This document shows positions 4,184 to 38,970 of a DNA stretch of 64,000 bases, one piece after another. The notes under the pieces are model-generated. The model saw only the letters and a program-made list of their open reading frames with translations. It was not told the DNA's origin and ran no database searches. The DNA lies in NCBI RefSeq assembly GCF_000969905.1, contig NZ_CP009520.1:1240001-1304000 (forward strand), read 5' to 3'. Each line of letters begins with the position of its first letter. The stretch's first letter is position 1. The DNA is from Methanosarcina vacuolata Z-761 (GTDB lineage: Archaea > Halobacteriota > Methanosarcinia > Methanosarcinales > Methanosarcinaceae). The position numbers were made by a program, and so were the translations under genes.

Positions 4184-7100
4184 ACATTGGAAAACCCGAA
4201 AGAGCCACCCAGGACCGAATAATCTCTCTTTTTCATGATGAGCTTGGCTATCGCTACGTAGGCAACTGGATTGACCGGGACGGTAACAGCAACATCGAGG
4301 AAGGACTACTCAATGCCTACCTGACAAAAAGCAGCTACACCCCCACCCAGATAGGCGTTGCTCTCTACAAGCTGGACATTGAAGCAAACAACCACAACCG
4401 AAGCCTCTACGGCAACAACAAAGCTGTCTATAGTCTGTTACGTTATGGCATTCCTGTGAAAACTGAGGCTGGAAAGGTCACTGATAACGTCTACCTTATA
4501 AACTGGCAGGAGCCGGAGAAGAACGATTTTGCCATTGCCGAGGAAGTAACACTCAGAGGAAACCGCGAGCGTAGGCCTGACATCGTGCTCTATGTAAACG
4601 GCATTGCAATCGGCGTGCTGGAACTGAAAAACAGCCGTGTGACAATCGGTGATGGAATCCGCCAGAGCTTATCCAACCAGAGCCCAGAGTTCAACGAATG
4701 GTTCTTCAGCACTGTCCAGTTCATCTTTGCAGGCAACGATTCCGAGGGCTTAAAATATGGCGCTATCGGCACGCCTGAAAAGTACTTCCTTGAATGGAAA
4801 GAAGACGAAAAGGATAACAGCCGTTTCAAGCTCGATAAATACCTGCTCAAGATGTGTAATAAGGACCGACTTATAGAGCTGATGCATGACTTCGTGCTCT
4901 TTGATGGCGGCGTCAAGAAACTACCACGGGTTCACCAGTATTTTGCTGTCAAAGCAGCACAGAAACATGTTATGCAGCGCAGGGGAGGTATTATCTGGCA
5001 TACACAGGGCAGTGGCAAAAGTATTGTCATGGTGCTGCTTGCCAAATGGATACTCGAAAACAATCCCAATGCCCGCGTGGTGGTAGTCACAGACCGCGAC
5101 GAGCTGGACAAACAGATCAAAAGAATCTTCAATGATGCAGGGGAAGATATCGAACGTACCACCAGCGGTCGCGAACTGATAAGCATGCTCGGCCAGGCCA
5201 AACCACGTCTGCTCTGCTCCCTTATCCATAAATTCGGCCGTAAAGGTGTTGACGATTTCGATGCGTTTATCAGAGATCTGGAATCCCAGCCAGGTAAAGC
5301 CGTAGGCGATATTTTTGTCTTTGTGGACGAATGCCACCGCACCCAGAGCGGCAAATTGCACCGGGCTATGAAGGCGATCATGCCAAATGCTGTCTTTATC
5401 GGTTTCACAGGTACACCACTGCTCAAGAAGGATAAACAGACCAGCCTGGAAGTTTTCGGCGGCTACATCCATACCTACAAGTTTTGTGAAGCGGTAGAAG
5501 ACAAAGTAGTGCTCGATCTAGTTTATGAATCACGCGACATCGATCAGCGCCTTGGCTCCGAGACAAAAATAGATGCATGGTTTGAGGCAAAAACCAGAGG
5601 ACTTAACGACTGGCAGAAAGACGAACTCAAAAAGCATTGGGGCACCATGCAGAAAGTGCTCAGTTCACGCTCTCGCATGGATCAGGTGGTAACTGACATT
5701 ATTTTTGATTTTGGCGTAAAAAAGCCTCGCCTGACCAGCGAACGCGGAAATGCTATTCTGGTAGCTTCAAGCATCTATGAAGCTTGCAAGTACTTCACCC
5801 TCTTCCAGAAGACACTTTTCAAAGGCAAATGTGCCGTGGTAACCTCCTACAATCCGCAGGCTCAGGACGTAACAAAAGAAGATACAGGCGCAAATACCGA
5901 AACAGAAAAAGAGTTCATCTACAACACCTACACCGAGCTGCTCAAAGATATAGAAACCAGGCCAGGCATGACAAAAACCGAGACCTATGAAGAGAAAGCA
6001 AAGGATCTGTTCACTAAAGAACCGGCGAACATGAAATTGCTTATCGTTGTGGATAAACTTCTCACAGGCTTTGATGCACCTCCCTGTACCTATCTCTACA
6101 TAGACAAGTCAATGAAAGATCACGGCCTGTTTCAGGCAATCTGTCGCACTAACCGGCTGGACGGAGACGACAAAGAGTTCGGTTATATTGTGGATTACAA
6201 AGACCTTTTCAAGAATCTGGTAAACGATAAAGGGACCGGAGCACTTCAGGTTTATTCCTCCGAGCTTGACTACAGCGCTGGCGGCGCTAGTCCGGAAGTG
6301 TTGATGCAGGACCGCCGGAAAAAAGGTAGGGGGCGCCTTGACAATGCTTTAGAGGCATTGGCTATACTCTGCGAGCCTGTTGAACCGCCGAAAGGAGAAC
6401 TGGAGCACATTCACTACTTCTGTGGAAATACGGAAATCCCAACTGACCTCCAGGAACGCGAAACTCAACGTGCTGCTCTCTACAAAGCTACTGCTTCACT
6501 CGTTCGTTCCTATGCAAACATTTCCGACGAACTGGAAGCTGCAGGATATAGTAGCTCAGATATTTCTCGCATTAAACAGCTACTGGAATATTACCGGAAT
6601 ATCCGTGAGATCATCCGCAGGGCTAGCGGTGAAAGTCTTGATCTGAAAGCTTATGAAGCAGATATGCGCCATCTTATCGACACTTACATCGAGGCAGCCG
6701 AGCCCAGAAAGGTTTCATCCTTTGAAGATATGCCTCTTCTGGACTTGATCGTAAAAACGGGAATTGACAAAGCCATTGCAACTCAGCTTGATAGACTGAA
6801 GGGCAACAAAAACGCTGTTGCTGAGACTATCGAGAACAATGTCCGCAGCAAAATTATCAAGGAACAACTGAACGACCCGGCATATTACGAGAAGATGTCT
6901 GCCCTGCTGGAAGAAATTATAGCAGCCAGGAAGGCAAAAGCCATTGAATATGAGGAATACTTAAAACGGATTGCGGATCTGGTAAAGCAGGTGGAGGCAG
7001 GACATGAGGACGATATCGTCGATGTACTGAAGAAAAGCCCTGCTTTAAGAGCACTCTACAACAACCTGAAAGACTGCGGGAAAAAGTTAGAGGGCCAGAT

Positions 7101-28043: not shown

Positions 28044-30647
28044 TTAGTTTCTTTTCTTCCGCAGGATAACAAATGCTATGGCGAGTATTCCAAGTGTAGC
28101 CATCCCACTGAAGAAAGGAGATTTTTTTGTCACTTCATAACTTTTGTCCAGTCCTCCGACTTCAACAGTATACGTCCCTGGCTCACCCTCAGTGTGTGAG
28201 AATTCGATTGATTTGTTCTCACCCGGATTAAGGGTTATATTCTGGGAATCAACCGATTCGTTATTAACCAGCAACTCCACTGTGGAGTTTCCTGTGACGT
28301 CTCCATTGTTCACAGCATTCACCTTAATATTTACCGCGGTTCCGGCTTCAACTGAAGCAGGCTGTATCGTGAGGTCTGAGAAAGCGAACTGTGCGACTTT
28401 TTCCGCCACCTCTACCTGGGTTTCTCCTTCTTCATAACCGGTCTTTGTGGCATTTATCACATACGTACCCGGAGAAGTAACCAGGTAAGATGTGATACCT
28501 TTTGCGTCTGTCTGTGCGTCAATTATCTGTCCGCCGAAAAAGACATCTGCCCCGGAAACTGGCTTGTTTTCCTCAGAGTCCGTGACCTTTATATCAATCT
28601 GGTCTCCTTCCCGGACAGTTTCGGGAGAGACTGAAACCAGAAGTTTCAGGACACCCTGTGCGAGGACATCCACATCCTTAGTTCCGGAAACATAACCTTC
28701 CCGGCTCGCAGTTACAGTGAAGCTGCCTTCATTGCTGGGGGTAAAGGTGAGATTTCCGCTGTCTCCGGTAGTGCCTATGCTTTTGTTTCCAACAGACACT
28801 TCAGCACCAACGACTGAAACATTTCTCGCAGTTACCAGGATTTCAGTCTGCTTACCAACTACAAGTGCGTCGGGCATTTCGATATCCAGTTGATCTCCTG
28901 CTGCAGTCTCGGTTTCGACAAAGGGATAAAAGCGCAGGACTGAAGAATCGGCAACCTTGAATTTGACATTGCCCATCAGGTCTACAACCTCATCCTTTGA
29001 AAGGGAGATTGAATCCTCGTTTTTCATTGTGATGCCTGAGTCGGAAATCGAAGTTATTTTCATTTCACCGAAAGAATCTCCCCCAGAGATTTCCAGGTAA
29101 TCATCCGAAATCTGGTAAATTCCCTCCACAAACACGGCATCTGTTTCTGTGGAACGGAAGACCGTACTTACATGGACCGCAATCATCGGAACATTTTCAG
29201 CCCCTCCTATATCGGTTTCATAAATATAGTCCCCACCCTGGGAAACTATTCCAGAGTCAAGGAGTTTTCCATTTTTGTAAAGCTCGAAGAGTACGTTTTT
29301 CCCATTAACATCGACCTCGGTTGCCTTAAGGGAGTAGCCGTTCTCCAGGGCTAAAGAAGAACCAGTGAACAGGGATTTTTTGTCATTGTCATCAATCAAA
29401 ACTTTTGCAAGGACACTGTCAGAAAGTACACTTATGCCCTTCGAATTTCCAAGAGTGTTTTCAGGATATCCTGCAAAATATTTCTCTGCCATAAATCCGA
29501 CAACTTCATAACTTCCCCAGCCCTCATGTTCAAATTTGACATTTTCAGGCTTTGTAGAATAGACGAGGGCTTCATCATCAATTGTCCTGCCATCAAGCTT
29601 TTCAATGACAAGGCTTTCAGTGGAAATATTTTCGTCGATGTTATAATAGAAACCTTCGAAGTTAAAAGGCGTCCAGACCATGGTATCAAACTTATCATCG
29701 TGTACCGTTCCCCTTAATTCGTAGGTTCCGGGTTCGGATGTTTCAACTATTGGAGCAAAACGAAGTTCATTGGCATCAGCCACAACAAAACTCAGTTTAC
29801 CCATGATGTCAATAGTGTCGCCCTTGCTAAGCGAGATAGCGTCGCTGTTGCTCATTTTTATGCCTGAACTTGAGGTGGAACTTACCTCCATTTCCCCAAA
29901 ATCATCACCATTCTGAACTTTCACGTACTGGTCCGATATCTGGAAAATTCCGTTCACGAAAACCGCATTTGTCTCTCTGCCGCTAAATATCTGGGAAAAA
30001 TGGACTGCAATTATGGGCACATCTTCGGTATCCCCGAGGTCGGCTTTGTATACATAGTCGCTATTAGAGGACAGGAAAGCTTCGTCAACTATATTGCCGT
30101 CCTTTTCAAGCTGTACCCAGACGCTATTTCCATTAATATCAACCTCAACCATATTCAGGGAGTATCCTTCGTCAAGAACAAGAGAAGAGCCCGTGTACAG
30201 GGATTTCCTATCATCGGAGTCTATCAGGACTTTTGAAAGCTGCCCGTCCGAGATAACGCTAATCTCTTTATCTGCAAAACTTGAGTTTGCGGTGTACCCT
30301 GCAAAGTAGCGCTCTGCCATAAACCCTATAACATCATAAGAACCCCAATTTCCATATTCAAAATCGGTCTTTATGGGTACTGTTTCATACTGCAGATTTT
30401 TCTTTCCAATTGTCCGGCTGCCCTTACTGAGTTGGACTGTCAGATTCTCGGAACCTTCTCCAGTATCCAGGTCATAATAAAAGCCCGAGTAAGTCTGAGG
30501 AGTCCATGTGTAGGTAAGGCTCTCATTTGCCTTTTCATCCCAGATACGGTTGCCTGTTGCATCTGAAGCCTGGGCAGCTGCACTTAGGCACAAAAGCCCA
30601 AATGCCAGAAATAAACATAAAATCTTGATGTAGCTTTTAATCCCCAT
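28044..30647 (-). CDS. Large S-layer-domain surface protein with Ig-like domains
   Basis: 867 residues with a signal peptide (LCLFLAFGLLCLSAAAQA, cut near residue 28). Two tandem S-layer domains of the Methanosarcina type follow (about 30-305 and 307-590), each with a YYDLDTGEG- or YYNIDENIS-like start, GWGSYEVVGFMAEKYFAGY, VLIDDNDKKSLFTG and the closing V-AD---LRF. Next come two carboxypeptidase-regulatory/PEGA-like beta domains (about 600-680, 685-755), a CARDB-like domain (about 765-845), and a C-terminal membrane anchor with basic KKRN. GGAGG precedes the ATG. It is homologous to the gene at 36925 but larger, so probably an accessory cell-surface protein. Confidence 0.85.
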   Translation of the reverse strand: MGIKSYIKILCLFLAFGLLCLSAAAQASDATGNRIWDEKANESLTYTWTPQTYSGFYYDLDTGEGSENLTVQLSKGSRTIGKKNLQYETVPIKTDFEYGNWGSYDVIGFMAERYFAGYTANSSFADKEISVISDGQLSKVLIDSDDRKSLYTGSSLVLDEGYSLNMVEVDINGNSVWVQLEKDGNIVDEAFLSSNSDYVYKADLGDTEDVPIIAVHFSQIFSGRETNAVFVNGIFQISDQYVKVQNGDDFGEMEVSSTSSSGIKMSNSDAISLSKGDTIDIMGKLSFVVADANELRFAPIVETSEPGTYELRGTVHDDKFDTMVWTPFNFEGFYYNIDENISTESLVIEKLDGRTIDDEALVYSTKPENVKFEHEGWGSYEVVGFMAEKYFAGYPENTLGNSKGISVLSDSVLAKVLIDDNDKKSLFTGSSLALENGYSLKATEVDVNGKNVLFELYKNGKLLDSGIVSQGGDYIYETDIGGAENVPMIAVHVSTVFRSTETDAVFVEGIYQISDDYLEISGGDSFGEMKITSISDSGITMKNEDSISLSKDEVVDLMGNVKFKVADSSVLRFYPFVETETAAGDQLDIEMPDALVVGKQTEILVTARNVSVVGAEVSVGNKSIGTTGDSGNLTFTPSNEGSFTVTASREGYVSGTKDVDVLAQGVLKLLVSVSPETVREGDQIDIKVTDSEENKPVSGADVFFGGQIIDAQTDAKGITSYLVTSPGTYVINATKTGYEEGETQVEVAEKVAQFAFSDLTIQPASVEAGTAVNIKVNAVNNGDVTGNSTVELLVNNESVDSQNITLNPGENKSIEFSHTEGEPGTYTVEVGGLDKSYEVTKKSPFFSGMATLGILAIAFVILRKKRN

Positions 30648-33512: not shown

Positions 33513-34295
33513 TTAATCATAGCATTTTTGCAGGCTAGCTCTTCGTTCAGATAAAACGATTAAAGACAAAATACAAATAAGCAACACTGCTGATGCTGAG
33601 TAGCGGCTCAACGCCAATCCTCCGGAACTTATCGGTTTATCCAAAAAGTCACCAACTACTGCCCCGAGCGGTCGCGTAAGAATAAATGCTGCCCAGAAAA
33701 GTGCAGTGGAAGATATTTTGGTCCAGAAGTATGCCGCCGCAACAAGTAATAACAGGGTGCCAAATACTATCGCAGCGCCGGAATAGCCCAGGCCCATTGT
33801 ATCAGCAGTCCAATCACCAAGAGCCGTACCTAAGGTTTGAGAGAACATGATCGTTCCCCAATAGAACATTTCTGTTTTCGGAGAATTAACGGTATCTACA
33901 GAAACAGATCCCATGGTGCGCTTCCAGATGAACAGTGATCCCAGGAGAAGCACTAAAAGCAGGGTGGACCCGCCCGCATATCCGATTCCCAAAGACCGAG
34001 TACAAAAATCAGCCAATGTCGTGCCTAATGTTGTCGTGGCGATGATGGTTATCCAATAGGTGTACGGGTTGAGCTTCTTTTCGCGGATCTGTGTGATAAC
34101 AGTGGCGACAAAAAACAAAGTAAAAATCATCGTGCCAGCAAGATAACCCAGATTCATGGACATGGTAACGGTGTCCCCACCAGTCTCACCAAGCGTGGTG
34201 GCAAATATCTTGATGATCCAGAACATAAGCGTTATTTCTGGGACCTTGCGAACTATTTCGCTTGTATTGAATTTATCGGATTGAATGTTCGCCAT
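33513..34295 (-). CDS. DUF347-repeat integral membrane protein (COG4705)
   Basis: 260 residues with eight or so hydrophobic helices. It has four internal repeats around the motif TLGETGGD, TLGTTLAD, TLGTALGD and PLGAVVGD, the signature of the DUF347 repeat. The regular placement of Asp within helices suggests an ion-binding or transport function, but none is proven. The ATG is preceded by AAGGAG 6 bp upstream. It is transcribed divergently from a direct-repeat block at 34360-34397, a candidate regulatory region. No neighbour is co-transcribed. Confidence 0.85.
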   Translation of the reverse strand: MANIQSDKFNTSEIVRKVPEITLMFWIIKIFATTLGETGGDTVTMSMNLGYLAGTMIFTLFFVATVITQIREKKLNPYTYWITIIATTTLGTTLADFCTRSLGIGYAGGSTLLLVLLLGSLFIWKRTMGSVSVDTVNSPKTEMFYWGTIMFSQTLGTALGDWTADTMGLGYSGAAIVFGTLLLLVAAAYFWTKISSTALFWAAFILTRPLGAVVGDFLDKPISSGGLALSRYSASAVLLICILSLIVLSERRASLQKCYD

Positions 34296-34359
34296 AATAT
34301 TCTCCTTGTATATTAGAATTCACTACTTTGGAGAAATAATTATAAATATATTGATTCTG

Positions 34360-34397
34360 GTACAGTATTCGAATATCCGTACAGTACTCGAAGTATC
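34360..34397. promoter_or_regulatory. Two 19-bp direct repeats (GTACA-N-TCGAA type)
   Basis: GTACAGTATTCGAATATCC (34360-34378) and GTACAGTACTCGAAGTATC (34379-34397) are adjacent and in phase. GATTCTG precedes them and AATCAAATT follows. The same arrangement with three repeats occurs at 36578-36634 upstream of the main S-layer gene. Here they lie 65-100 bp upstream of the divergent DUF347 gene. They look like binding sites for a shared regulator. Confidence 0.55.
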
Positions 34398-35096: not shown

Positions 35097-35366
35097 ATGA
35101 TGACTGAACCCGATCAAATAATCCAACTTGTATCAAGTTTATTAGCGTTAATTCTTTTTGTTATCTCCCATCTTGCATATCGTCGAGAACGTAGAAAGAA
35201 ACTTTTTATTTTATCTTTAGCATTTTTTTTCTATTCCGTAATGAACTTCCTGGACGCAGCAGATATTTTTTTCCCTCAAGCAGGTGAATACCCCGAAATT
35301 TGGGGAAGTTTACTAAATTTCGTAGTGCTTGCATTGTTTTTTCTTTCCATGATAACAAAAGAGTAA
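35097..35366 (+). CDS. Small membrane protein in operon with a winged-helix regulator
   Basis: 89 residues with three hydrophobic stretches: IIQLVSSLLALILFVISHLA, then LFILSLAFFFYSVMNFL and a C-terminal LLNFVVLALFFLSMI. A basic loop RRERRKK separates the first two, placing that loop in the cytoplasm. GGAGG lies 12 bp upstream, a little far. Only 7 bp separate it from the regulator gene, so they form an operon; it may sense a membrane signal for the regulator. That is inference; I do not recognise the family. Confidence 0.65.
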   Translation: MMTEPDQIIQLVSSLLALILFVISHLAYRRERRKKLFILSLAFFFYSVMNFLDAADIFFPQAGEYPEIWGSLLNFVVLALFFLSMITKE

Positions 35367-35373
35367 GGTAAAA

Positions 35374-35898
35374 ATGGAATTCGAACTAGAGACTAGAAGA
35401 AGAATTTACGAACAAATTAAAAAATCTCCTGGTATTCACTTCCGGGAACTTGAGCGGAGGCTGCAGATGGTAGTTGGCAACCTGCAGTACCACCTTCAGT
35501 ATATGGAAAAGAAAAATCTGATAAGGGCTTCGAATGATGGAGATTATGTACGTTATTTCGTAAAAGACAGGAGCTTAAGCGAAACCGAGAGAAAAATAAT
35601 GTCTTTCTTAAGAAGATCCGGTTGCAGACACATCCTTATTCAGCTTCTCAATAATCCGGATATGAATAACAAAGAACTCTCTCAGGCCGTTGGTCTCTCT
35701 CCTTCAACTATTTCCTGGAACCTGAACAAACTTGTAGAAGCCGGAATAATTGAAAGAGAAAAAACCGGCAGGATAAGTAAATTCACAGTCATTGACCCTC
35801 TCGCGATTGCAGAACTCCTTATATGCTACAAAGAAAGTTTTCTCGATACTCTGGTTGATGGTTTTATTGAAATGTGGGAATTCAAAAACTCTAAATAA
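35374..35898 (+). CDS. Transcriptional regulator with two winged-helix domains
   Basis: 174 residues. The first domain (about 5-65) has GIHFRELERRLQMVVGNLQY and HLQYMEKKNLI, a winged-helix recognition helix and wing. The second (about 75-145) has NNKELSQAVGLSPSTISWNL followed by NKLVEAGIIEREKTGR. Double winged-helix proteins of this kind are common in Methanosarcina and often pair with a small membrane protein, as here (gene at 35097). Target genes are unknown; the S-layer gene at 36925 and the 19-bp repeat blocks at 34360 and 36578 are close by, so regulation of surface genes is a reasonable guess. Confidence 0.8.
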   Translation: MEFELETRRRIYEQIKKSPGIHFRELERRLQMVVGNLQYHLQYMEKKNLIRASNDGDYVRYFVKDRSLSETERKIMSFLRRSGCRHILIQLLNNPDMNNKELSQAVGLSPSTISWNLNKLVEAGIIEREKTGRISKFTVIDPLAIAELLICYKESFLDTLVDGFIEMWEFKNSK

Positions 35899-36134
35899 TT
35901 TGATTGTTCGTCGTTTGATTGATATTATTCCAGTATACTCGAAATACAGCTTCTAGCTATTCTTTCTGTTAAACGTGATACTTTTTTAAGAAACTTATAA
36001 TCTGACATTTAAACTGAATCGTGAGCCATGTTGCAGGTAACGTAAGGAAAGCGTCAATAAGGTATTGCTGGGTGATCAAAGTTTTGAGTTAGTCTCGTTA
36101 TCTGGGCTCTACTTCACTGTTTTTAAACTCTATT

Positions 36135-36239
36135 GAGACCTCCTGATCAGTTAATGAGATATCGTGGTCAGTTAATGAGACCTCCTGATCAGTTAATGAG
36201 ACCTCCTGATCAGTTAATGAGACCTCCTGGTTAGCTAAC
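36135..36239. repeat. 21-bp tandem repeat, five copies
   Basis: Unit GAGACCTCCTGATCAGTTAAT at 36135, 36156, 36177, 36198 and 36219. The second and fifth copies have several substitutions. Intergenic. Confidence 0.9.
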
Positions 36240-36577
36240 GTGGATGGATCTATACACCAGATTCAAAATACGTTTCCAGAGAATATTGAATTACAAACTC
36301 AAATTTCATAAAGAAGTCAGCTGAAATTTAAGTTCTTAAAAATCAGCCGGATCAAAAAGGACAGAAACTCTTACGTTTACTGAACAAAAGTTGAAAATAT
36401 TTATGGTGGCGGGAAACATGGAAGAAACTTGGAAAACCCGCCACATTCTCCTATGGAAGAAGGTTCCGCCACATTCTTCTAGGGAGGAAGGTTTGAAATA
36501 TTTTGTAGTGTTGATCCCGATTATTCACCACAATAACCTTCAGTTTTCAGTCTTCATTAGACATAATAACGATTCTG

Positions 36578-36634
36578 GTACATTATTCGAAGATTAGTAC
36601 AATTGTCGAACATTAGTACAATCTTCGAATAATC
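36578..36634. promoter_or_regulatory. Three 19-bp direct repeats upstream of the S-layer gene
   Basis: Units begin GTACATTATTCGAA (36578), GTACAATTGTCGAA (36597) and GTACAATCTTCGAA (36616), exactly 19 bp apart, i.e. about two helical turns, so all would face the same side of the DNA. GATTCTG precedes and AATCAAATT follows, as at 34360. They end 290 bp before the S-layer ATG. Confidence 0.55.
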
Positions 36635-36924
36635 AAATTTTTATGTAGTCGACGAGTTCAATCTCAAAATTGCGTAGGAGCATATCGAAAATATGCCATG
36701 TTTCCAGATAATGCATAAATTCCGGACCAAAAAAGATTTATAAGACTCGATTTTATAAAACGCTGTAAACCAATTTTCGGGATGAGGAGAAACGAAACAA
36801 TCTTCGACAATAGACGTGATATGTAGCTCTAATTGGTGAAGAGTGGTAAACCCCCTTAAATTATTGATCCCGATAATTCTTCTTACATATAATAGATCTT
36901 AACAAATATGGAGGAAACAACAAA

Positions 36925-38970
36925 ATGAAGAGATTTGTAGCCAGTGCACTGGCAGCTCTCATGCTTCTGACTGTATTTGCATCCGCCGCAATGGCTGATG
37001 ATAATACAACCTCAGCAGCGAGTACAGTTGAGATCCGCGGCCCTGTGTACAATGGCTCAAGTTTAACCGATATCCTTGCAAATAATGCATATGGTAACGG
37101 TACAATTACAATGGATGCTAACAAATTTGCAGCATTCTATTACGACATTGACAACAACGTGACAACCGAGTCTCTTACCATTAAGAACGTTGCTGGCACT
37201 TCTGGCAGGACTATCGGAGATAACGGTTTAGTATACAAGACAACAATCGGAAACGCCGAATACGAGAATAAAGATGTCGACTGGGGCAACTACAGTGTGA
37301 TTGGCTTCTTTGCAGACAAATATATCCCACTGAAGTCCAACGCTGCTGACAAGCTTGCCAAACTCGTACTCGACAGTGACGACAAGTATACTCTCAAGAC
37401 CGGAGACTCCCTTGACCTCGGTGACGGGTACTCTCTCCAGGCCAAGCAGGTCGATGTTGACGGAAATAAAGTCTGGCTTGAATTCGACAAAGACGGAGCA
37501 TACGTCGATGACGAGATAGTCTCAACTGACTCTGGCGATCATACCTGGACTTGCAAAGTTGACGACGTTCAGGGCGAAGACGATGTTCCTGTCCTGAAGG
37601 TACATGTCAACCAGGTCTTCCAGGGCGCAGTCGACAGCATTGCACAGATTGATGCTATCTGGCTCATTGACTACGCAAACGCAATAAAGATCAACTCTGA
37701 CGATGAATTCGGCAAACTCAACGATGTTTCCATCAACGGCCCAACCATTACCATCAGCAATGATGATACGTTCAGCCTGACTAAAGACTCTGATCAGGAA
37801 ATCGGGCAAGGGTTATACTTCAAGGTTGCTGACTCCAATGATCTCAGGTTCTATGCCTACAAGCAGCAAACAACTTCTGGAACCTATGATGTAAGAGGAA
37901 CCGTTGTTTCCGGCACACAGTCTTACACCTGGACTTCAGACAACTTTGCTGGATTCTTCTACGACCTGAAGAAGAACGTTGGAACCGAAACTCTGAGTGT
38001 TTCTGGCGTTAACGGAAGAACTATTCCTAAAAACGGCCTCAACTACAGCACCACTGTAAGCAAGGTTGATTATAATGCCGATGATGTATTCAACGGAACG
38101 TACCCAGTTCTCGGCTTCTTTGCGCAGAAGTATGTCCCACTGAAATCCACCGACGCCAGCAAGCTTGCCAAACTCGTTCTTGACAGTGACGACAAGTACA
38201 CTCTCAAGACCGGCGAAACACTCGACCTCGGCGATGGGTACTCTCTCCAGGCCAAGCAGGTAGATGTTGACGGAAACAAAGTCTGGCTCGAGCTCGACAA
38301 AGACGGAGAATACGTCGATGACGAGATTGTCTCAACTGACTCCGGTGATCATATCTGGACTTGTGAAGTTGACGACGTTCAGGGAGAAGACAATGTTCCT
38401 GTCTTGAAGGTACATGTCAACCAGGTATTCCAGGGCGCAGTCGACAGCATTGCACAGATCGATGGCCTCTGGCTCATTGACTACGCAAACGCAATAAAGA
38501 TCAACACTGACGACGAATTCGGCAAACTCAACGATGTTTCCATCAACGGTCCAACCATTACCATCAGCAATGATGATACATTCAGTCTGACTAAAGACTC
38601 TAACCAGGAAATCGGAGAGGGAATGTACTTCAAGGTCGCCGACTCCAATGTACTCAGATACTACCCATATGTTGAGGAGACCATTGGTAACGGAACGGCT
38701 ACAACCACTCTGGGTAACACAACCAGCATCGATAACACAACAGTTACCGATAACATGAGTGTTACTTCAACTCCAGTTGTGAACAGCACTGAAGAAACTC
38801 AAGATGTAAACGCGAGCACTCCTACAAACATGGAGACTCCAACAACTCCAGATACATCAGCTGCTGCAAACAACACCACTGAAACACAGAACAAATCTCC
38901 TGGCTTTGGGGTTATCCCAGCAGTCTTCGGACTTCTGTTAGTCTTCTACATCGTCAGGAAGAACAGGTAA
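36925..38970 (+). CDS. slmA: Major S-layer protein
   Basis: 681 residues closely matching the Methanosarcina main S-layer protein layout: signal peptide MKRFVASALAALMLLTVFAS (cut after AMA, about residue 24), two tandem S-layer domains (about 35-310 and 315-590) that share long identical stretches such as KLAKLVLDSDDKYTLKTG and GYSLQAKQVDVDGNKVWLE, a Thr/Ser/Asn-rich tether (about 595-655) with many N-glycosylation sites, and a C-terminal membrane anchor beginning PGFGVIPAVFG and ending in basic RKNR. GGAGG lies 10 bp before the ATG. Codon use is strongly biased (GAC, AAC, CTC), as expected for a very highly expressed gene. It forms the porous protein sheet around the cell. Confidence 0.95.
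   Translation: MKRFVASALAALMLLTVFASAAMADDNTTSAASTVEIRGPVYNGSSLTDILANNAYGNGTITMDANKFAAFYYDIDNNVTTESLTIKNVAGTSGRTIGDNGLVYKTTIGNAEYENKDVDWGNYSVIGFFADKYIPLKSNAADKLAKLVLDSDDKYTLKTGDSLDLGDGYSLQAKQVDVDGNKVWLEFDKDGAYVDDEIVSTDSGDHTWTCKVDDVQGEDDVPVLKVHVNQVFQGAVDSIAQIDAIWLIDYANAIKINSDDEFGKLNDVSINGPTITISNDDTFSLTKDSDQEIGQGLYFKVADSNDLRFYAYKQQTTSGTYDVRGTVVSGTQSYTWTSDNFAGFFYDLKKNVGTETLSVSGVNGRTIPKNGLNYSTTVSKVDYNADDVFNGTYPVLGFFAQKYVPLKSTDASKLAKLVLDSDDKYTLKTGETLDLGDGYSLQAKQVDVDGNKVWLELDKDGEYVDDEIVSTDSGDHIWTCEVDDVQGEDNVPVLKVHVNQVFQGAVDSIAQIDGLWLIDYANAIKINTDDEFGKLNDVSINGPTITISNDDTFSLTKDSNQEIGEGMYFKVADSNVLRYYPYVEETIGNGTATTTLGNTTSIDNTTVTDNMSVTSTPVVNSTEETQDVNASTPTNMETPTTPDTSAAANNTTETQNKSPGFGVIPAVFGLLLVFYIVRKNR

Follow-up and report, generated by a model that had tools for sequence, protein, structure and literature searches.

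Tandem 19-bp repeats as candidate operators of a double winged-helix protein at envelope genes of Methanosarcina vacuolata, and a predicted small RNA divergent from an S-layer gene

Introduction

ArsR/SmtB proteins are defined by a single winged helix per chain and by binding to inverted repeats. The regulator described here scores above the cut-off of NF033788 with its C-terminal winged helix, but it carries two winged helices per chain and is associated with direct repeats of an asymmetric unit, and thus falls outside that definition. Its N-terminal domain, which is followed by the second winged helix, scores above the Pfam cut-off for the HVO_0163 type of winged-helix proteins, a family for which we found no operator, partner or regulon in the accessible parts of the open literature that we searched. 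With regard to the circuit as a whole, the proposed arrangement would resemble the MicF/OmpR-type system of porin switching in enteric bacteria, in that a DNA-binding regulator would act through an RNA that pairs with a surface-protein mRNA in its leader; it differs in the domain of life and in the proteins involved, and the archaeal case is a prediction.

As for the surface layer itself, the accessible part of one study gives Mbar_A1758 as the major S-layer protein of M. barkeri, and reports that the Mbar_A2011 transcript was undetected in methanol- or H2/CO2-grown cells (PMC3361143). The part of a 2025 review that was available states that S-layer expression is raised under direct interspecies electron transfer, the gene being unnamed there (PMC12369344). 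In the open literature searched, no regulator of Methanosarcina S-layer genes is described, and the operator, regulator and RNA considered below appear nowhere.

Here, we analyze a 64,000-nucleotide stretch of the M. vacuolata Z-761 genome (hereafter, the window) in which two arrays of a 19-bp repeat flank the gene of a double winged-helix protein. We propose, with a probability of roughly two in three, that the repeat units are operators of this protein, which would work together with the small protein m89 in activating envelope genes, and that one of the arrays would, in the Methanosarcina barkeri group, serve a divergent, S-layer-targeting RNA.

Results

Two arrays share one border and a helical spacing

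Both arrays consist of the unit GTACA-N4-TCGAA, read on the plus strand: three units (36578, 36597, and 36616; array 36578..36629) precede the S-layer gene slmA2, and two (34360 and 34379; array 34360..34392) lie before a DUF347 gene. All five are exact and follow each other with a period of 19 bp, as the initial annotation of this DNA had reported. For the spacing, which it gave as about two helical turns, 19 bp amounts to ~1.8 turns; the 5-bp half-sites alternate at intervals of 9 and 10 bp, close to one half-site for each turn. Regarding the borders it had taken as shared, GATTCTG is indeed identical at the S-layer array (36571-36577) and the DUF347 array (34353-34359), but AATCAAATT, although present on the right of both, lies ~9 bp farther from the DUF347 array than from the S-layer array, and relatives show no conservation of the right flank. 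Single units with at most one mismatch occur 13 times in the window, compared with 3.15 in shuffled sequences (0 of 100 shuffles reached 13). The genome-wide search that had been suggested found the tandem pattern (up to three mismatches, 4.56 Mb) at 36578 and 34360 only, and the reversed control gave one match. In ten genomes, M. vacuolata being one of them, not one of the 30 core columns of the S-layer array varies; also invariant are 16 of the 22 spacer columns, 121 of the 188 columns in the block to its left, and 23 of the 88 columns between the array and the S-layer TATA box.

The regulator and m89

The protein encoded between the arrays (35374..35898, plus strand; 174 aa) has a predicted structure with two helix-helix-strand-strand units and matches the Pfam families HTH_HVO_0163_N and HTH_24 above their cut-offs. 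Residues 6-74 correspond to PF24266 (HTH_HVO_0163_N; 66.8 bits against a gathering cut-off of 31), and residues 85-139 to NF033788 (ArsR/SmtB metalloregulator; 64.8 bits against a curated cut-off of 55). C84 and H86 are located where the second domain begins. C84 lacks conservation among 32 homologues, and no metal-ligand pattern common to these homologues was seen. The underlying 32-row alignment excludes G002, a metagenome-assembled genome (L122) in which the regulator frame is broken, possibly by an assembly error, and reads G112 only to its stop. Gene fragments of a CCA-transferase and a flippase-like protein follow slmA2 in the same G002 locus. Identity with MsvR, the redox regulator of methanogens, was rejected (26.1 bits against 220 for full-length NF053755), and fold comparison of the predicted model (mean pLDDT 66.8) returned generic MarR/ArsR matches only.

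Directly before the regulator gene lies m89 (35097..35366, plus strand), encoding a small hydrophobic protein of 89 aa. It takes this position immediately 5' of the regulator in 28 of the 32 aligned loci, and is broken or missing at some regulator loci. Its Pfam matches are all sub-threshold, including the small membrane protein family DUF7521 (15.9 bits against a cut-off of 27), which was rejected. In G013 (L117, about 5060-5210), m89 is reduced to a remnant, with regulator and array kept.

Canonical targets and the direction of the S-layer array

Across the relatives, the array characteristically lies upstream of a target gene on the opposite strand, reading away from it, with the border CAGAATC followed directly by a TATA-like box. 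The array at 34360 shows exactly this layout relative to the DUF347 membrane protein gene (33513..34295, minus strand; Pfam DUF347, E 2.7e-60), whose TATA-like box AATATATTTATAAT (34339..34352, minus strand) abuts the array border. In view of how archaeal promoters generally work, the location of the arrays immediately upstream of the TATA box would point to an activator, although the regulator may be a repressor instead. Outside Methanosarcina, the targets are lipoprotein genes, DUF347, or an operon for a small secreted protein, a lipoprotein and an ABC-2 transporter. For DUF347, a role as metal exporter has been proposed in Frankia, according to the accessible part of that report (PMC4531530).

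Five upstream arrays with their target present have 0-1 mismatches in 20 core positions, and in four relatives that lack DUF347 and have no other divergent gene, the array can still be aligned and shows 3-5 mismatches in 20. Judging from these alignments, the array decays where its adjacent target is lost; since the relatives share ancestry, the four cases do not count as four independent events. G014 (L121, 3699-8082) has two DUF347 paralogues, 37% alike and each with its own array, as well as a transposon-like gene pair between array and m89. In G008 (L116, 2505-2537, reverse-complemented), an additional array, decayed in part, has a TATA-like box and no recognizable target.

The gene on the other side of the 36578 array, slmA2 (36925..38970, plus strand), encodes a second S-layer protein of 681 aa and is, by length and neighbours, the apparent orthologue of Mbar_A2011. 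Its TATA box TTTATAAG (36737..36744, plus strand), of a type common to the slmA promoters of the genus, lies ~100 bp off the opposite end of the array. A further S-layer-type gene (28044-30647; 867 aa, like Mbar_A2016) has no array. The initial annotation placed the 36578 array upstream of the S-layer gene; a role as a simple promoter element of that gene is not supported, and the direction is probably wrong. Its GATTCTG side faces leftward, toward an RNA-like block, and next to this border stands a TATA-like box, GTTATTATG (36562..36570, minus strand). The TATA profile of 14 other targets fits this left, minus-strand side in every one of the ten genomes (p 0.0001-0.0051); on the plus side the fit is poor, G014 being an exception in that a higher score is reached there by the best of 12 offsets. 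By the layout rule of the canonical targets, the array would therefore fire leftward, away from the S-layer gene and into the conserved block.

It could be argued, nevertheless, that the 36578 array acts on slmA2 itself, as an activating or repressing site upstream of it, and that the left block is a further protein-binding region rather than an RNA gene. The distance from the array to the slmA2 start, 343-349 nt throughout the ten genomes, would fit this reading, as would the undetected Mbar_A2011 transcript in methanol or H2/CO2 cells, which is what a conditional gene would be expected to show. Moreover, slmA2 shares its core promoter and leader type with slmA1 (Mbar_A1758, MA0829), a genus-wide gene that lacks an array and is preceded by a conserved block of its own; without that block, slmA2 would need some other control. 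We nonetheless regard this reading as doubtful: canonical arrays adjoin their TATA box in the opposite orientation, the ~100 bp to the slmA2 TATA box are poorly conserved, the TATA-like box on the other side is present in 10 of 10 genomes, and the left block shows RNA-like conservation of pairs.

The neighbouring protein as the probable reader of the arrays

Among 30 Methanosarcina genomes, the array (at most one mismatch) is present in 11, and the same 11 carry the regulator at no less than 79% identity; the other 19 have neither, and any regulator relatives in them are weak and more distant. On a marker tree of the 30 genomes, array and regulator must have been gained or lost three times or more to give the observed distribution, one carrier, G008, being placed within a different clade. 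Its regulator is 89% identical, against 78% for the marker protein, which, together with its position in the tree, suggests that the set was transferred as a unit. In G021 the set lies at a different locus, as the marker gene there is directly followed by a PAP2 gene.

Across 185 genomes of the order, a strong regulator homologue was found in 32 genomes (33 loci), strong homologues being separated from weak ones by a gap in E value (3.7e-39 versus 2.3e-26) at which the cut was placed once the gap had been seen; this cut excludes G119, which has a C-terminal regulator fragment with a stop. A two-unit array with at most two mismatches lies within 8 kb in 22 of these 32 genomes (23 loci), and arrays occur in 2 of the 153 genomes without a strong homologue, both of them incomplete assemblies (Fisher p about 1e-18, relatedness ignored). 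G149 harbours two copies of the regulator, each with its own array and its own target. Ten of the 32 regulator genomes have no two-unit array within two mismatches nearby; this includes G110, which has a two-mismatch pair on another contig and was scored as regulator without array. Three of the ten have in common one isolated unit together with the border; in two others a lone unit precedes a lipoprotein gene, and five possess a degenerate pair just after the regulator, plus a single unit before m89; the five degenerate pairs score 9.5-23.5 against a shuffle maximum of 8.0.

The initial annotation had suggested that one regulator, perhaps the double winged-helix protein encoded between the arrays, binds them. 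The perfect co-occurrence within the genus, the physical linkage across the order and the decay of arrays upon target loss bear this out, strongly supporting an operator role of the repeats, and the arrays are most probably read by the 35374 protein. Could another regulator read them, the linkage to 35374 being inherited synteny? The ten regulator genomes without a clean two-unit array nearby would accord with such a view, but we consider it improbable, because the linkage persists across genomic contexts and different targets, is found twice in one genome and appears in a genome from another clade. In addition, two families show motif variants together with an altered recognition helix in the N-terminal domain: in f4 and f5 this helix and the GTACA half both differ, and the C-terminal helix and TCGAA are little changed. 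The comparison also gives a hint that the N-terminal domain may read GTACA, and two winged helices per chain facing two half-sites per unit suggest that a monomer would occupy each unit.

A predicted small RNA to the left of the S-layer array

The conserved block, its fold and a covariance model delineate a predicted small RNA of ~150 nt (36390..36541, minus strand; ends approximate), which the 36578 array likely drives leftward. The minus-strand fold comprises a hairpin-bearing 5' stem, a middle hairpin that is variable and mostly absent from G013, and, on the 3' side, a GC hairpin with terminator-like character (GUGGCGGG...CCCGCCAC; 36406..36444, minus strand). A 28-bp direct repeat lies within the RNA at 36438-36493; G013 is without one copy. 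Standard pairs make up 99.7% of the 305 pair cells. G-U cells that are legal only on the minus strand number 20, compared with none legal only on the plus strand, with 8 of the 20 coming from one pair and the structure having been derived from one of the sequences compared. Covariation did not rise above shuffles (287/500; identical rows merged, nine of ten distinct), and fold stability does not favour the minus strand, the plus strand being equally stable against shuffles (z -2.38 versus -2.20). Searching 185 genomes with the covariance model gave strong matches in 10, exactly those with a visible slmA2 array; in G021 the contig ends at the site of this array. Rfam 15 had no match above its gathering score in 35900-36930, and three matches were at chance level.

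That the block encodes a plus-strand protein instead (64 aa from 36403), as its open frame in 9 of 10 genomes might indicate, is very improbable: variable sites are spread evenly over the codon positions (6, 7, 8), the residue is changed in 13 of 17 varying codons, G028 has no ATG and G013 is frame-shifted.

Complementarity to S-layer mRNA leaders

The S-layer mRNA leader before slmA2 (36864..36916, plus strand) runs from the hairpin loop TTGATCCCGA to the Shine-Dalgarno sequence ATGGAGGAA, and in M. vacuolata a leader with both elements was found only before slmA1 and slmA2. In the predicted RNA, a stretch from loop 1 and its stem, UCGGGAUCAACACU (36507..36520, minus strand), forms a 14-nt complement of the slmA1 leader, and loop 2, UUCUUCCAUGUUU (36414..36426, minus strand), complements the Shine-Dalgarno region of slmA1 and slmA2. 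An exact 14-nt complement of the slmA1-leader sequence AGTGTTGATCCCGA occurs in G000, G002, G003, G004, G005, G014, and G028; it is 13 nt long in G013 and only a short match in G008, where a compensating change between RNA and slmA1 leader was not found (G026, whose slmA1 leader was not in hand, was excluded from the comparison). For loop 2 in G000, the match extends over 13 nt with one G-U for slmA1 and 15 nt with two G-U for slmA2. Shuffled RNAs reached the leader-complementarity scores in 2-18 of 1000 cases, i.e., the excess is moderate. It is plausible that the RNA pairs with S-layer mRNA leaders, tuning or switching the S-layer. In the slmA2 leader, the hairpin loop TGATCCCG is kept and the stem differs in most genomes, so that the loop-1 pairing is shorter; one may speculate that the change of the stem reflects an escape from the RNA.

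Discussion

In the mechanism that we propose, the two-domain protein would bind the asymmetric unit head to tail, its GTACA and TCGAA half-sites lying about one helical turn apart, and, positioned beside the TATA box, would activate envelope genes, namely those for lipoproteins, the ABC transporter and DUF347. m89 may be a sensor or partner of the regulator and is the natural candidate for signal sensing. In the barkeri group, one array would have been recruited beside the extra S-layer gene, where it would drive the divergent small RNA, whose loops may pair with S-layer mRNA leaders, chiefly that of slmA1. A more far-reaching version, according to which a membrane-coupled regulator, once active, drives an RNA that silences slmA1 via two loop contacts (at the leader hairpin and at the ribosome site), the normally silent slmA2, with its rewritten leader stem, takes over and the whole kit moves between species as a cassette, seems to us rather unlikely.

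For envelope genes in an archaeal order of major methane producers, our analysis names a regulator with its likely membrane partner, an operator and targets. If the RNA is real, it would open a concrete, testable way into the question of how an archaeon might replace one S-layer protein by another; it would also account for a conserved S-layer gene that is silent in laboratory cultures. The notion that the arrays are tandem repeats without meaning or belong to a mobile element, to which further short tandem repeats nearby (36131-36238 and 36438-36493) might lend some colour, is refuted in practice by the invariance of all 30 core columns in ten genomes, by a 19-bp period and promoter position that remain constant across genera, and by the lack of other tandem copies in the genome. 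The former of these nearby repeats, to the left of the conserved block, consists of four to five copies of a 21-bp sequence (TAATGAGACCTCCTGATCAGT-like) and is not conserved in relatives.
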